Below are positions 30,135 through 38,464 of a DNA stretch of 64,000 bases, in pieces. Within the stretch, counting starts at the first letter, position 1. Each line of letters opens with the position of its first letter. The position numbers and the translations under genes were made by a program. This stretch comes from Gemmatimonadota bacterium (GTDB lineage: Bacteria > 4572-55 > J002), in assembly GCA_003697105.1 (NCBI GenBank), contig RFFQ01000173.1:4789-68788 (forward strand). Direction: 5' to 3'. The notes beneath the pieces were generated by a model that was not told the DNA's origin, made no database searches, and saw only the letters and a list, made by a program, of their open reading frames with translations.

Positions 30135-32228
30135 TTACAATTCCATATCCAGACGGGTGGGGGGTTTATTCCAATCGACAATCATGCGGGAGAGAAGGTC
30201 TCGGACTAACTCATTTGAGGGTTGTGGTGTCGTTGTACTGGCGGGTCGTTTTGCCGTTGAAGGTGCGGAAACGCTTGGCGTGGAATTTTCTCCTAATACG
30301 GAACGAAGTGTATCCAGCGTAATTGTGGTTTCTCCGTTGACAGAACACTGTGCTGTCAGGCGGTTTAAAATTCCTCGTAATTCCCGGATACTATGTTGGT
30401 ATTGGTGGGTAATATAGTCGAGAGCGCGGGGGTCTATTGTTAAGTTTAAGGCTTCAATATAATTTTTGACAATAGTTCGCCGTACTTCTGCTTTTGGCGA
30501 TTTGAGTTCGATCACCAACCCCCCTTCAAAGCGGGAGCGAATCCGGTGCTCTACTTCTGTCAATAGATTCGGGGGACGATCACCACTAATGACGATCTGT
30601 TTGTTCACGGAATATAAGGTATTAAAGCAGTGAAAAAACTCTTCTTGGGTGCGCTCTTTGCCGCTCAAACGCTGAATATCGTCCATCAACAGCACATCAA
30701 TTTCATTGTAATTCATCCGAAAGTCATCGGTGCGGCGCTCTTCAATTGCTTTGATTAAATGGCGGGCAAATTCATCCACGGTGATGTAGAGCACATTCAG
30801 ATGCGCGTGATGATCGACAATGTAATTCCCGATAGCGTGGAGCAGGTGGGTTTTTCCCAAGCCGACGCCGCCATGAATATAAAGCGGGTTGTATTGCTTT
30901 GCTGGCGCCTGACTGACCGCTTTGGCAATGCTCATCAGCATTTTATTTTCATCCCCGGCGATGTAATTTTCAAACCGGAAATCCAAGATCAAGGTTTGGC
31001 GATAGGTTTGGCGGCGTTCAATGCGGGTTTCGAGCCGTTTCAGGTCGGCGGCAATCTGGTCGATGGCTTCCGGGTTGAACAGATTTTGTTCGATTTTGCG
31101 GGCGTCTGCTTCCAGCCCTCGCACATCCAAACATGCCAATTGCTTTTGGAATTCCGCTAATCGTTTGGCATCGCGGGTGTATTCCCGAAAAACTCGTTCG
31201 ATCTCTTCCACATTACCATCAATCACTTGCTGCAACCGGACGACATTAAAGCCTTTCATCTCCCACACATAGAGTTTTTGCCGGTAAAATTCGCGGAGTT
31301 CCTCTTCTTCTTGCCGTTTTGAGATGGTCTGGCTGACATCATGTTCGACTTCTTCGATAAATTGCCCGAATTCTTCCGGTAAACTAGATTTGGCGGGGGA
31401 TTTGGCGAGGGATTGAGGCTCGGGTTGGGCTACTGGTGGGGGAGTGACCTCCACCGCTGGGGAGGGTGGGGGGGTTGTGTCATAGCGTTTCTGGCGTTCG
31501 GCTAGGAGTCGTTGAACCCATTCCACGGTTACCTGCGCATCATTCAGGCTGGAAATCGCTAGGACTTGATTCAAGAAGCCCTCTAATTCCCGGATGTTGG
31601 AGGTAATTCCCTGTGCGATCTCGTAGATCAACTCCTCCGGCAGGGTGATGTTACGCAGGGCGGCTTTATTGTTAAGGATGGCGACTCGTGTTTCAAAATC
31701 GGGTAGTTGGATATCGGCTACCAGCCCTCCTTCAAAACGGGAGCGTAACCGTTCATCCAAATCCATACTTTTCGGCGGACGATCACTGGTGAAGACGATC
31801 TGTTTTTGCAAGGTATAAAGTGTATCGAATGTATGCAGTAACTCCGTTTGGGAGCGGTCTTTATCGGCGAGGAATTGAATATCGTCGATGAGCAGGCAAT
31901 CCACATTGCGGTATTTGTTGTGGAAATCGTCAATGCTTTTGCGCCGTTCAAGGGCATCTAGCAGTTCATTCGCGAACTGTTCCGCGGTGGTATAGATGAT
32001 TTGAATCTCAGGATTCGTTTGAAGGAGTTCATTACCGATGGCGCTGATGAGGTGGGTTTTGCCCAAGCCCACACCACTATAGATAAAAAGCGGATTATGC
32101 ATAAAACCGGGCATATCCGCGACCCCTTTAGCGGCGGCATAAGCAAAGCGATTACTATTCCCAACAATAAAGTGATCAAAGGTAAAGTTGGGATTGAGGA
32201 AGAGTTGAAGTTGGTTACCTGCGCTCAT
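30135..32228 (-). CDS. DnaA-like protein with two tandem AAA+ ATPase domains and no DNA-binding domain IV
   Basis: A 697-residue protein in which two DnaA-type ATPase modules are fused. Module 1 (about 15-245): FDHFIVGNSNRFA, Walker A GVGLGKTH (52-59), Walker B LLIDDIQ (112-118), sensor TSDRPP, arginine-finger segment RLRSRFEGGL, and the small helical lid NIRELEGFLN. Module 2 (about 415-645): FENYIAGDENK, Walker A GVGLGKTH (454-461), Walker B LLMDDIQ (513-519), SGDRPP, RIRSRFEGGL, SIRELRGILN. Between them lie a Pro-rich linker and an acidic coiled-coil-like region (about 300-410). The C-terminus is a Ser/Thr/Pro linker plus a short helix; the DnaA domain IV helix-turn-helix is absent. It is therefore unlikely to be the replication initiator. 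It lies 24 bases after the TPR gene. Confidence 0.9.
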   Translation of the reverse strand: MSAGNQLQLFLNPNFTFDHFIVGNSNRFAYAAAKGVADMPGFMHNPLFIYSGVGLGKTHLISAIGNELLQTNPEIQIIYTTAEQFANELLDALERRKSIDDFHNKYRNVDCLLIDDIQFLADKDRSQTELLHTFDTLYTLQKQIVFTSDRPPKSMDLDERLRSRFEGGLVADIQLPDFETRVAILNNKAALRNITLPEELIYEIAQGITSNIRELEGFLNQVLAISSLNDAQVTVEWVQRLLAERQKRYDTTPPPSPAVEVTPPPVAQPEPQSLAKSPAKSSLPEEFGQFIEEVEHDVSQTISKRQEEEELREFYRQKLYVWEMKGFNVVRLQQVIDGNVEEIERVFREYTRDAKRLAEFQKQLACLDVRGLEADARKIEQNLFNPEAIDQIAADLKRLETRIERRQTYRQTLILDFRFENYIAGDENKMLMSIAKAVSQAPAKQYNPLYIHGGVGLGKTHLLHAIGNYIVDHHAHLNVLYITVDEFARHLIKAIEERRTDDFRMNYNEIDVLLMDDIQRLSGKERTQEEFFHCFNTLYSVNKQIVISGDRPPNLLTEVEHRIRSRFEGGLVIELKSPKAEVRRTIVKNYIEALNLTIDPRALDYITHQYQHSIRELRGILNRLTAQCSVNGETTITLDTLRSVLGENSTPSVSAPSTAKRPASTTTPQPSNELVRDLLSRMIVDWNKPPTRLDMEL

Positions 32229-32252: not shown

Positions 32253-34769
32253 TTAGGACACATCAGAAATTTCATCGGGTTGATGCGGTAGGGAAACATG
32301 CCCACCTCTGGAAAAGATACGCTCCCATTCCAACGCCACCTCCAGACTTTGCCGGGCACTTTCGCGTAGATTTTCATCTTCCGTGGAGGAGATAATCTGC
32401 TCCCACTGTTTGATGGCGCCTTTGTAAATCCGGCGGTAATTACACAGACCTAACTGATAATGGGCGTAGTGATAGGTTGGTTTGATGCGGATGACCGTCC
32501 GGTAGGTGTGTGCGGCTTCGTTATACTTTTGCTGTTGAAAATAGATGTCCCCTAGGGTTGTATAGACATAGGCATCATTTGCGTTGGTTTTGAGGGCTTC
32601 CTGACAGATATTTTCCGCGGTTTGCAGATCATCTTTACGAACATAAATTTTAGCTAAGCGGCGGAACGCCAATGAATTTTCCGGGTTGAGTTCGATAGCT
32701 TGCCGGTAGTAGTGGATTGCGTCATCGGGGCGTTCGGCATATTCAGAAAGAATGCCACAAATCAGTTGGGCTTCAAAATTCGTAGGTTCTAGTTCGATCA
32801 CCCGTTTGTACGCCTCCAGTGCTTTATCGTACAGCCCTTTTTTCTTATACACATTCCCTTTGGAGCGGTATATTTCGCTGCGGTCGGGTGCTAACTGGTT
32901 TGCTTTGCCCAAGTACAACAAAGCTTCGTCATACATGCCTTTGCGGGAGTATGCCCGGCCAAGCAGATATTGCGCCTCCGTATGTTGGGGGTCGAGTTCC
33001 ACGGCAACCCGGAGTTTGATCAGGGCTTCGTCCAGAGCACCAGCGTCGAAGTGCTCTTTTGCTTCTTGATAATACCGGTGAACTTCGGTGCGTTTAATGC
33101 GTTCGGCGCGATCAATACCTTGTTCGTGTTCTCCGGCTAAACGTTCTTGCAGCCGTTTGGCGGCGTCTTCGGGGCGGGCAACCGGAACGGTCAGGACTTC
33201 AAATTTGGGAGTGGGGAAGTCGATCATCAATTTGAAAAAGTACCCCGCATATTCGCTGCGTAAACTCCGTGCATCCTCAAATTGAACAATAGCTTCTTCG
33301 TACCGTCCCTGATGGACAAGTGCAAAGCCATAATTAAATTTTGCTTCGGCACTTTGCGCATTTACATGAACGGCATCACTCAAAAACGGGATTGCCTGAT
33401 CGTAATTGCCCAATTCCAAATGCACAATTCCCAAATTTGCCAACACCCGATAATTACTGGGTTCCCGCTGGCGGCACTCCTCCAAAATTTTCAGTGCTTC
33501 TTGATATTCATTTTGCCAACGATACACTAAAGCAAGATTGATTTGAGGCTCGATGTCTTTCGCGTCAAGCTGAATCGCTTGGCGAAATGCCTCGATTGCT
33601 TGGTCGTACTGACCTTGATTGACCAGTGCGACGCCCCGATTATTGTAACTGGGGGCATACTGTGGATTGACCTTCAATGATTTATCGTACCATACCAGTG
33701 CTTTTTGATATTCACCGGAGAGGTGATGCCCGACGCCGATATCGTTAAACATTCGGGCTGAATAAGGCTCTACCACTAGTGCTTTTTGGTATTCACGCAC
33801 CGCATCGTTGGCGTTACCTTTCAGCAACAGAATTTCTGCCACATTGCGGTATATCAATGCCGCATCCGGATCGATACCCAACGCCCGTTGAAATTCACCC
33901 AGCGCTTCATCAAAAAAGCCTTTATTGCGATAGGCGATCCCCATGTGATAATGATTCATAAAATTCTGGGCGGGGGATTGAGTGTGTGTTGTCCGCACGG
34001 AATCGGTATCGCTCAACTCGACATCACTATCGTCGATTTCAAGGTTTGTTTCCGCTTTGGCGTAATTGGGGTCTAGTTTGATTGCCGTGTTGTACGCTTC
34101 CTGTGCTTCGGTGAACATGCCTTTATCGCCGTAAACAAAACTCAGGTGGAAGTAGGCATCGGCAAGTTCGGGATCGATTTCGATCACCTTTTGGAATTGA
34201 GCGATGGCTTCTTCATCCATGCCCATGTTGTAATAGGCTTGTCCCAGTTTATCATGGATGATGGCGATACCGGGTTTAAGTTCCGCCGCAAATAGATATT
34301 CTTGAATTGCACGTTCACAATCTCCAATGCCCATCAAGCCGTTACCGAGGTGATAATGGGCAAGGTAATTCATCCGGTCCATCTCAACCACGGTGGTATA
34401 TTGTTCGATGGCATCTTGAAAATTACCGGCGGTTTCATAAACGTTGCCCAACTTGTAGTATGCCTGCACATCTTTCGGGTTCATCTGAATCCGCTGTTTG
34501 TATTTATTGATGAGTTCATCGTATTTGCCGGTTTTCCGGTACACGGCTTGTAAATTGCGGCGGGCAAGTGAAAAACGGGGGTCTAGGGAGAGGGCTTTGC
34601 GAAATTGTTGAATCGCCTCTTCATAAAAGCCTTTTTGGTAAAAGACGACTCCCAAATTGTTATGGGCGCCTGCATCTTTCGGATCCAGGCGATCCGAATA
34701 GCTTTGCAGGACTTTTATATCTCCATTCCGTGTCGTCTGGTGTTGGGTATCGGAAGCCATAGTTTCCAT
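32253..34769 (-). CDS. Long tetratricopeptide-repeat protein
   Basis: An 838-residue cytoplasmic protein (no signal peptide) made almost wholly of 34-residue TPR units. The consensus A..NLG..Y...G.Y.EAI..F..A..L.P recurs from about residue 30 to 820. One break near residue 240-265 is acidic (DDSDVELSDTDS), and another near 515-600 carries a region without clear repeats (FPTPKFEVLTVPVARPEDAAKRL). The open frame runs upstream into gatA, but those 60 residues are a shadow of gatA in another frame; the ATG at 34769, eight bases after AAAAGG, is preferred. TPR proteins are scaffolds; the adjacent tandem AAA+ protein is a natural candidate partner, but this is inference. Confidence 0.88.
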   Translation of the reverse strand: METMASDTQHQTTRNGDIKVLQSYSDRLDPKDAGAHNNLGVVFYQKGFYEEAIQQFRKALSLDPRFSLARRNLQAVYRKTGKYDELINKYKQRIQMNPKDVQAYYKLGNVYETAGNFQDAIEQYTTVVEMDRMNYLAHYHLGNGLMGIGDCERAIQEYLFAAELKPGIAIIHDKLGQAYYNMGMDEEAIAQFQKVIEIDPELADAYFHLSFVYGDKGMFTEAQEAYNTAIKLDPNYAKAETNLEIDDSDVELSDTDSVRTTHTQSPAQNFMNHYHMGIAYRNKGFFDEALGEFQRALGIDPDAALIYRNVAEILLLKGNANDAVREYQKALVVEPYSARMFNDIGVGHHLSGEYQKALVWYDKSLKVNPQYAPSYNNRGVALVNQGQYDQAIEAFRQAIQLDAKDIEPQINLALVYRWQNEYQEALKILEECRQREPSNYRVLANLGIVHLELGNYDQAIPFLSDAVHVNAQSAEAKFNYGFALVHQGRYEEAIVQFEDARSLRSEYAGYFFKLMIDFPTPKFEVLTVPVARPEDAAKRLQERLAGEHEQGIDRAERIKRTEVHRYYQEAKEHFDAGALDEALIKLRVAVELDPQHTEAQYLLGRAYSRKGMYDEALLYLGKANQLAPDRSEIYRSKGNVYKKKGLYDKALEAYKRVIELEPTNFEAQLICGILSEYAERPDDAIHYYRQAIELNPENSLAFRRLAKIYVRKDDLQTAENICQEALKTNANDAYVYTTLGDIYFQQQKYNEAAHTYRTVIRIKPTYHYAHYQLGLCNYRRIYKGAIKQWEQIISSTEDENLRESARQSLEVALEWERIFSRGGHVSLPHQPDEISDVS

Positions 34770-37561: not shown

Positions 37562-37990
37562 CTATTTCCGTTTTCGGGAGGTACTTTGTCCCCCGCTGGA
37601 TGGCGTGTTTCCCGCGCTACTTCCTCCCCCGGAGGTGCCCTTGGGTTGATCACTTAAATAGGCGGGAACTTCTCGTTCTTTCATGTTCACTTTACCCCGA
37701 ATAATGGCTTCCGGATCGACTTCTAAGCCGCCGGTGGGGCATTCAATGTCCCCTTCTACCCGACCACTGGCATGAATATGGACTTTTTCTTTGGCAAAAA
37801 TATTACCAACCACTTTGCCTTCGACCGAAACAATGGTGCCTTCTACTTCGGCGGTCACCCGTCCATTTCTGCCGATGTGAAATTTGCCGTTGACCTTAAT
37901 TTTACCTTCAAATTCACCTTCAATGGTGATGTCCTCATCGCTGGTCATCTCCCCGGTAACTTTAATTCCTTTGCTGATTAATGATTGCAC
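37562..37990 (-). CDS. Bactofilin (first paralogue, Ser/Gly-rich tail)
   Basis: A 142-residue polymer-forming cytoskeletal protein. The bactofilin right-handed beta helix (about residues 8-100) is visible as regularly spaced hydrophobic residues: GIKVTGEM, DITIEGEFEGKIKVNGKFHIG, GRVTAEVEGTIVSVEGKVVGNI, EKVHIHASGRVEGDIECPTG, IIRGKVNM. The tail (about 110-142) is rich in Ser, Gly and Lys/Arg. GTG start with GGAGGAATT directly before it. Bactofilins form nucleotide-independent filaments for cell shape and for tethering hydrolases. Confidence 0.93.
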   Translation of the reverse strand: MQSLISKGIKVTGEMTSDEDITIEGEFEGKIKVNGKFHIGRNGRVTAEVEGTIVSVEGKVVGNIFAKEKVHIHASGRVEGDIECPTGGLEVDPEAIIRGKVNMKEREVPAYLSDQPKGTSGGGSSAGNTPSSGGQSTSRKRK

Positions 37991-38032: not shown

Positions 38033-38464
38033 CTATTTGGATTCCGCTGATGGTGATGGTTTAGGGGACCGTTTTCGATCCGGCATTTCACAACTTCCCT
38101 TAAAAATAGCCCCATCTTCCACCACGAGACGCGGATTATCAATATTACCCGTCACGTGGGCCGTAGGGCGGAGATGTAGTTTATCTTGTGTGACAATGCT
38201 TCCATTCACCCGTCCGGAGACGATCATATTGCGAGCCCGGATGGATTCGCTCTCAAGGTTACCGGACTCCTCAATGGTGAGGTCTTCATTTAAGCTGATT
38301 TTACCATTGACTTTACCCATAATTCGTACCGAATCCTGACCGGAAATATCGCCTTTAATCACCACCCGCGAGCCGATGTAGGTATCTTGTTTGCGGTCTA
38401 ACTTCGGGATATTTGCCTGTTGTAAACGCTGTTCTTCTTTGTTTTTGTTACCAAACCAACCCAT
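38033..38464 (-). CDS. Bactofilin (second paralogue)
   Basis: A 143-residue bactofilin: a short charged N-terminus (MGWFGNKNKEEQ), then beta-helix turns YIGSRVVIKGDISGQDSVRI, GKVNGKISLNEDLTIEESG, MIVSGRVNGSIVTQDKLHL, AHVTGNIDNPRLVVEDGAIFKG and a basic tail (DRKRSPKPS). The N-terminal MGWFG may contact the membrane. It is first in the minus-strand operon, 42 bases before the first paralogue, and they may co-polymerise. A strong promoter lies at 38514-38542. Confidence 0.93.
   Translation of the reverse strand: MGWFGNKNKEEQRLQQANIPKLDRKQDTYIGSRVVIKGDISGQDSVRIMGKVNGKISLNEDLTIEESGNLESESIRARNMIVSGRVNGSIVTQDKLHLRPTAHVTGNIDNPRLVVEDGAIFKGSCEMPDRKRSPKPSPSAESK

Follow-up and report, generated by a model that had tools for sequence, protein, structure and literature searches.

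A family of tandem DnaA-type ATPases, apparently non-replicative, tied to chemosensory–MglA polarity operons

The tandem gene and its protein

The gene at positions 30135–32228 of the window (the whole 64,000-nucleotide stretch of DNA analyzed) encodes a protein with two DnaA-type AAA+ modules, and a TPR protein gene lies directly upstream of it on the same strand. The features of this locus are:

30135..32228, minus strand: tandem DnaA-type AAA+ ATPase gene (697 aa, ATG start, frame uninterrupted)
32199..32213, minus strand: N-terminal QLQLF, resembling a sliding-clamp-binding peptide (motif from PMC3836487)
31482..32201, minus strand: N module, DnaA domain III (residues ~10–249), with Walker A/B, arginine finger, and sensor 2
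30999..31376, minus strand: helical linker (residues ~285–410), with the family signature EF..F...W...GF.....L
30282..30995, minus strand: C module, second DnaA domain III (residues ~412–649), R245-type residue kept
30138..30215, minus strand: C-terminal tail peptide LLSRMIVDWNKPPTRLDMEL, a candidate docking peptide with low model confidence
32253..34769, minus strand: TPR protein gene, with its stop ~25 bp before the ATPase start, a homologue of the TPR gene of the operon described below

An earlier note on this DNA had read the protein as two complete DnaA-type ATPase modules without a DNA-binding domain, and both parts of that reading hold. Using Pfam, two Bac_DnaA stretches were found (E 2.7e-123 together) and no Bac_DnaA_C or DnaA_N match at E<=1, whereas the genome's own DnaA matched all three families in the same scan (Bac_DnaA 2.8e-73, Bac_DnaA_C 2.3e-27, DnaA_N 2.1e-11). 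The AlphaFold2 model (mean pLDDT 83.1, pTM 0.64) contains two confident AAA+ modules (~10–249 and 412–649) that are joined by three helices (291–324, 340–366, and 386–405). The N module overlays on DnaA domain III (8bv3) with Z 29.3 and an rmsd of 1.8 over 234 residues, and the next-best structures are those of Hda (Z 19.9 at best). Because just two short, low-confidence helices follow the second module (past ~residue 649), in a tail that is modeled as disordered or weakly helical, the protein has no folded domain IV. At the other end, where domain I stands in DnaA, the first module already begins at ~residue 10. The joint between the modules had been described as coiled-coil-like; it is helical, and is more accurately a conserved segment with its own signature, for which a profile search against solved structures returned chance-level matches only (E 1.4 and 3.3). 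The conserved C-terminal tail peptide had been missed.

To describe the ATP sites, residues were surveyed in 35 tandem proteins and 55 ordinary DnaAs (E. coli numbering). Both halves of the window protein carry the Walker A lysine, the two Walker B aspartates, R281, the R285 arginine finger, and the sensor-2 R334. Across the tandem proteins, K178, D235/D236, R281, and R285 are kept in 34–35 out of 35 in both halves, and R334 in all N modules (35/35) and most C modules (32/35). The sensor-1 ‘DR’ is absent from the C module of most Gemmatimonadota and present in the window protein. Judged by these kept residues, the survey supports the view that both modules are ATPase-competent.

The window genome contains a normal dnaA on contig C63 (464 aa; domains I, III, and IV), showing that the tandem gene is not its only dnaA. 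Its Bac_DnaA matches comprise this one DnaA and two tandem pairs, the second being a 701-aa paralogue on contig C64 that shares 41% identity with the window protein over 667 aa, linker included. Given the normal dnaA and the second tandem paralogue, the window gene does not encode the initiator and did not arise as a frameshift fusion; a false fusion, which the earlier note had raised against its own reading, is also ruled out by the tandem relative in the same class and by ~100 tandem proteins of Gemmatimonadota. Automatic pipelines are nevertheless likely to call the tandem protein a second replication initiator, because its two modules together score 615.9 bits with the DnaA model, against a cut-off of 343.9.

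Gene order around the ATPase

In a Gemmatimonadota genome (G062, contig QHVB01000031.1), the tandem ATPase lies within a long cluster in which CheA, CheC, a TPR protein (936 aa), a DUF4388 protein (which we take to be PATAN-type), a TPR/roadblock protein, a roadblock protein, MglB, and MglA precede it, and a DUF4388/TPR protein, CheR, CheD, CheB, and CheW follow. The genes of this cluster were named from sequence, with Pfam confirming DUF4388, CheC, CheW, and CheA on the homologues in G001 (a member of the window's class) and on contig C64, and CheD and CheB on homologues in the window genome.

This gene order recurs across the phylum. Among 48 named Gemmatimonadota loci, which were fetched by the linker and not by their neighbors, MglA lies directly 5' of the ATPase in 40 of the 42 testable cases and the DUF4388/TPR gene directly 3' in 45 of 46; in the best-scoring 30 loci, MglA is upstream and DUF4388/TPR downstream without exception (30/30). 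Further downstream in the linker-fetched loci, CheR, CheD, and CheB are present in 28/30 and CheW in 25/30, and where more than 8.1 kbp of upstream sequence is available, MglA and MglB occur in 28/28 and CheA and CheC in 26/28. In 35 of 43 loci, the end of the MglA gene and the start of the ATPase gene share 4 or 1 bases. Using whole-genome coordinates, the MglA–ATPase pair is adjacent in 70 of the 75 Gemmatimonadota genomes checked; of the other five, three or more are affected by a contig end. All of these counts come from genomes related within one phylum and are not independent of each other. The family f131, which belongs to a third phylum-level group, repeats the same order (CheC-TPR-DUF4388-roadblock-MglB-MglA-ATPase-DUF4388/TPR-CheR-CheD-CheB). 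The cluster is also carried by G401 (L132), whose assembly is a single contig of 4,636,964 bp.

In the window's own class, G001 encodes a tandem protein in the order CheA, ExeA-like ATPase, CheW, CheC, TPR, DUF4388, tandem; the ExeA-like AAA ATPase between CheA and CheW lies at L037:1951-2793. The TPR gene upstream of the window ATPase (start ~34769, judged from alignment and the end of gatA) matches the operon's TPR homologues with E 1e-101 in Gemmatimonadota, 2e-124 in f131, and 3e-115 in G001, compared to 1e-31 for an unrelated TPR protein of the window genome. The second tandem copy follows a DUF4388 gene and a gene for a 241-aa protein (L036:4670-5395), which has no Pfam match. Elsewhere, the window genome encodes CheW, CheY, CheA, and CheC in one cluster and CheR, CheD, and CheB in another, an mglB-mglA pair that lies three genes away from the gene for a PilB-type ATPase, and a gene with an MglA domain that precedes a DUF4388/roadblock gene; in total there are six MglA homologues and four PilT genes over the cut-off. 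No mglA was found beside either tandem copy in this genome. We therefore hold pathway membership strongly for Gemmatimonadota and the f131 group, and less firmly, if still with good confidence, for the window copy, since the parts of the pathway are scattered in its genome.

Two adjacent bactofilin genes are located in the window at 37562-37990 and 38033-38464 on the minus strand (PF04519, E 3.9e-23 and 1.7e-26), ~3 kbp upstream of the TPR gene start. Bactofilins are polymer-forming cytoskeletal proteins.

Distribution, history, and constant parts of the family

A full-length tandem profile (E<=1e-90) was run on 386 genomes spread over the domain and gave full-length matches in three only: the window genome, G001 from the same class, and G062; the phylum of the window genome is represented by two genomes in this collection. 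The linker profile alone, run on the same genomes, matched seven: the same three, two further Gemmatimonadota, and two of f131. Within Gemmatimonadota, the tandem protein was found in 106 of 298 genomes at E<=1e-120 (50 of 119 genera), which is a lower bound because shorter forms score less. In the phylum-level group of f131, the gene is present in 10/10 genomes as a one-module version.

In a tree that covers the window protein, its paralogue, G001, and the Gemmatimonadota proteins, the N modules fall into one clade (95/81) and the C modules into a second (99/97). Together with the common linker and tail, these clades suggest that the tandem arrangement arose once, in an ancestor, and not by several independent duplications. 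A recent origin of the pair, by duplication of a module within the window gene itself, was considered and rejected, given that the two clades extend across two phyla and the linker and tail are shared. A tree forcing the two halves of the window protein together was not significantly worse (p-AU 0.276), so that this rejection rests on the clades and the shared linker and tail.

The second module is shortened or lost in several relatives, in Gemmatimonadota at loci with a low score for the tandem. Two Gemmatimonadota forms (L185 and L187) have a C module without the lid, and two others (L184 and L186, the latter with degraded module motifs) consist of one module, linker, and tail; all four lie between MglA and DUF4388/TPR. 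The f131 ATPase is likewise made of one module, linker, and tail. The constant parts of the family are thus the N module, the linker, and the C-terminal peptide, and the built-in pair of modules named in the earlier note does not define it, as one-module versions with linker and tail occur in two Gemmatimonadota families and in f131. As tail peptide, Gemmatimonadota proteins have SREKMVWDWP...DRVIEELR, f131 has IEENWPWVEDRLMEE, the window protein MIVDWNKPPTRLDMEL, and G001 LISDWPIQDDLIEWEF; the second tandem copy of the window genome has no clear match to it.

Other DnaA-type proteins of unusual make-up were met in these searches. One set (L060, L061, L064, and L069; in a wider sense L080, L081, and L083; also L077 and L078) comprises proteins of ~615–730 aa with one DnaA-type module and an N-terminal extension. 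These proteins have no domain IV match where tested, and in several genomes they are encoded close to PilT, just a few genes away and frequently separated from it by glycine-cleavage genes. L074 (G149:C14) and L075 (G287:C299) belong to one family with 12 and 10 Bac_DnaA matches per genome, in which the modules lie in long frames with repeats that resemble, by appearance, the N-terminal domain of pilus ATPases. In L076 (G013:C1 ~2399969-2406395) and L082 (G300), a DnaA-type module lies within frames of 2145 and 1752 aa, and L084 (G025:C145, 3515-8776, minus strand), a frame of 1754 aa, gives a DnaA-type match and carries two widely spaced Walker A motifs.

Probable role and comparison with known systems

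DnaA-type ATPases are known for their work on DNA, and the components thought to drive the MglA polarity pathway are a GTPase with its GAP, TPR proteins, and receiver proteins. Because relatives in two other phyla adjoin genes that set the direction of surface movement almost wherever the contig permits a check, a role in cell polarity is probable for the window protein. On balance, we favor the explanation that this DnaA-derived AAA+ ATPase no longer serves replication and is now a fixed component of a cell-polarity pathway that leads from chemosensory proteins to MglA and probably controls type IV pili or another surface-motility machine. The conserved context agrees with one suggestion of the earlier note, a repurposed motor working on something else. 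If this explanation is correct, a replication machine has moved to cell polarity through a family that kept the ATPase and dropped the DNA-binding domain, and the MglA polarity pathway includes an AAA+ component. In the open-access literature searched, nothing relevant linked DnaA to MglA or DUF4388, and no earlier description of the tandem family was found; this conserved family of DnaA-type ATPases appears to be new.

Within the pathway, we infer that the ATPase acts as an ATP-dependent switch or scaffold for surface motility. ATP-bound modules would pack head to tail via their arginine fingers, as in DnaA, and this packing could create a nucleotide-gated oligomer or switch, with the linker spacing or pairing the modules. 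The C-terminal WP peptide may dock a partner, most likely the adjacent DUF4388/TPR protein or MglA. Beside MglA-GTP, the ATPase would then place or license the motility machine at the pole, in a position that may correspond to that of SgmX, FrzS, and SopA in Myxococcus, where MglA-GTP recruits the TPR protein SgmX, and thereby PilB, to the pole, and FrzS and SopA tune the process (PMC11580455). More tentatively, the initiator's ATPase could have been turned into a nucleotide-gated polar assembly, i.e., a DNA-free DnaA-type polymer that couples the chemosensory array to the Ras-like switch MglA, with the tandem protein as a prefabricated two-subunit block. The one-module and degraded versions imply that two ATPase modules are not required in every case, and a head-to-tail polymer is therefore unproven.

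The same pathway membership could be combined with another mechanism, in which the protein is not a scaffold but a remodeling ATPase that pulls apart or recycles MglA–effector or roadblock complexes. The AAA+ fold, the hydrolysis residues in both modules, and the close genomic association with MglA and a number of roadblock proteins would suit such an activity. We consider it rather unlikely, however, because the closest structures are those of DnaA domain III, a nucleotide-switched assembler and not a threading motor, and because one-module and degraded versions occur.

An Hda-like regulator of replication, one of the possibilities raised in the earlier note, would sit on the sliding clamp via QLQLF and, with its arginine finger, make DnaA hydrolyze its ATP. 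The position of the peptide in the chain matches that of Hda's clamp peptide (PMC3836487), the arginine finger is kept, and no Hda separate from the DnaA and the two tandem pairs was seen in the window genome. However, a QLxLF-like N-terminal peptide is present in 1 of 79 family proteins, the window protein, and its absence from the other 78 means that a replication role would be particular to the window copy. The Hda model (TIGR03420) gives 193.9 bits with both modules summed, below its cut-off of 194.8, the two modules and linker are unlike Hda, and the conserved operon is of the chemosensory/MglA type and not of replication. As the main role of the family, we regard this as improbable.

Less probable again is a nucleic-acid-binding regulator whose C module still contacts ssDNA or RNA. 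V211 and R245 are ssDNA-contact residues of E. coli DnaA (PMC12122000, PMC11853086), and the surveyed C modules keep I/V at the V211 position (34/35) and R245 (35/35). Against this, the N modules have mostly lost both (R245 is replaced by E in 33/35), part of the ssDNA-contact helix is deleted in the one-module protein of f131, some relatives lack the C module entirely, and there is no domain IV. At these two positions the window protein has L/R in the N module and I/R in the C module, which is less extreme than in the family. Finally, a surplus or decaying copy of dnaA that has no function of its own, which the derivation from DnaA and the second paralogue might suggest, is hardly credible and already contradicted by conservation, given the open frames, the kept catalytic residues, the deep separation of the N and C clades, and the shared operon order in Gemmatimonadota and f131.

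Compared to known systems, the tandem AAA+ machines p97/Cdc48 and Rix7 also have two AAA+ modules per chain, but their full-length fit is poor (rmsd ~18–27 Å) and the window modules belong to the DnaA clade. The DUF4388 proteins that flank the ATPase recall the PATAN regulators of type IV pili; we know of no DnaA-type AAA+ ATPase in the cyanobacterial PATAN/type IV pili systems. In cyanobacteria, PATAN response regulators bind the pilus motor PilB (PMC10519157). The Frz-MglA-SgmX/FrzS/SopA system of Myxococcus xanthus shares the CheA-type system, MglA, MglB, and a long TPR protein, with PATAN proteins co-occurring, whereas mglA there is not near the genes of its pathway partners (PMC4316618) and no DnaA-type ATPase is described for it in PMC11580455 or PMC4316618. 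A survey of MglA proteins reported hosts that include Gemmatimonadetes, as well as PATAN neighbors in certain MglA groups, and did not mention DnaA (PMC4316618). Hda/HdaA, the DnaA inactivator, is a DnaA-type ATPase without domain IV that shares the arginine finger, and the N-terminal QLQLF of the window copy resembles its clamp peptide; in contrast, the tandem proteins have two modules and a linker, and their relatives sit in chemosensory/MglA operons. With DnaA itself the likeness lies in the modules, both being domain III by sequence and predicted fold with the ATP-site residues kept, and the window protein differs from it in having two modules, a helical linker, and a tail peptide, in lacking domains I and IV, and in being encoded alongside a normal dnaA.
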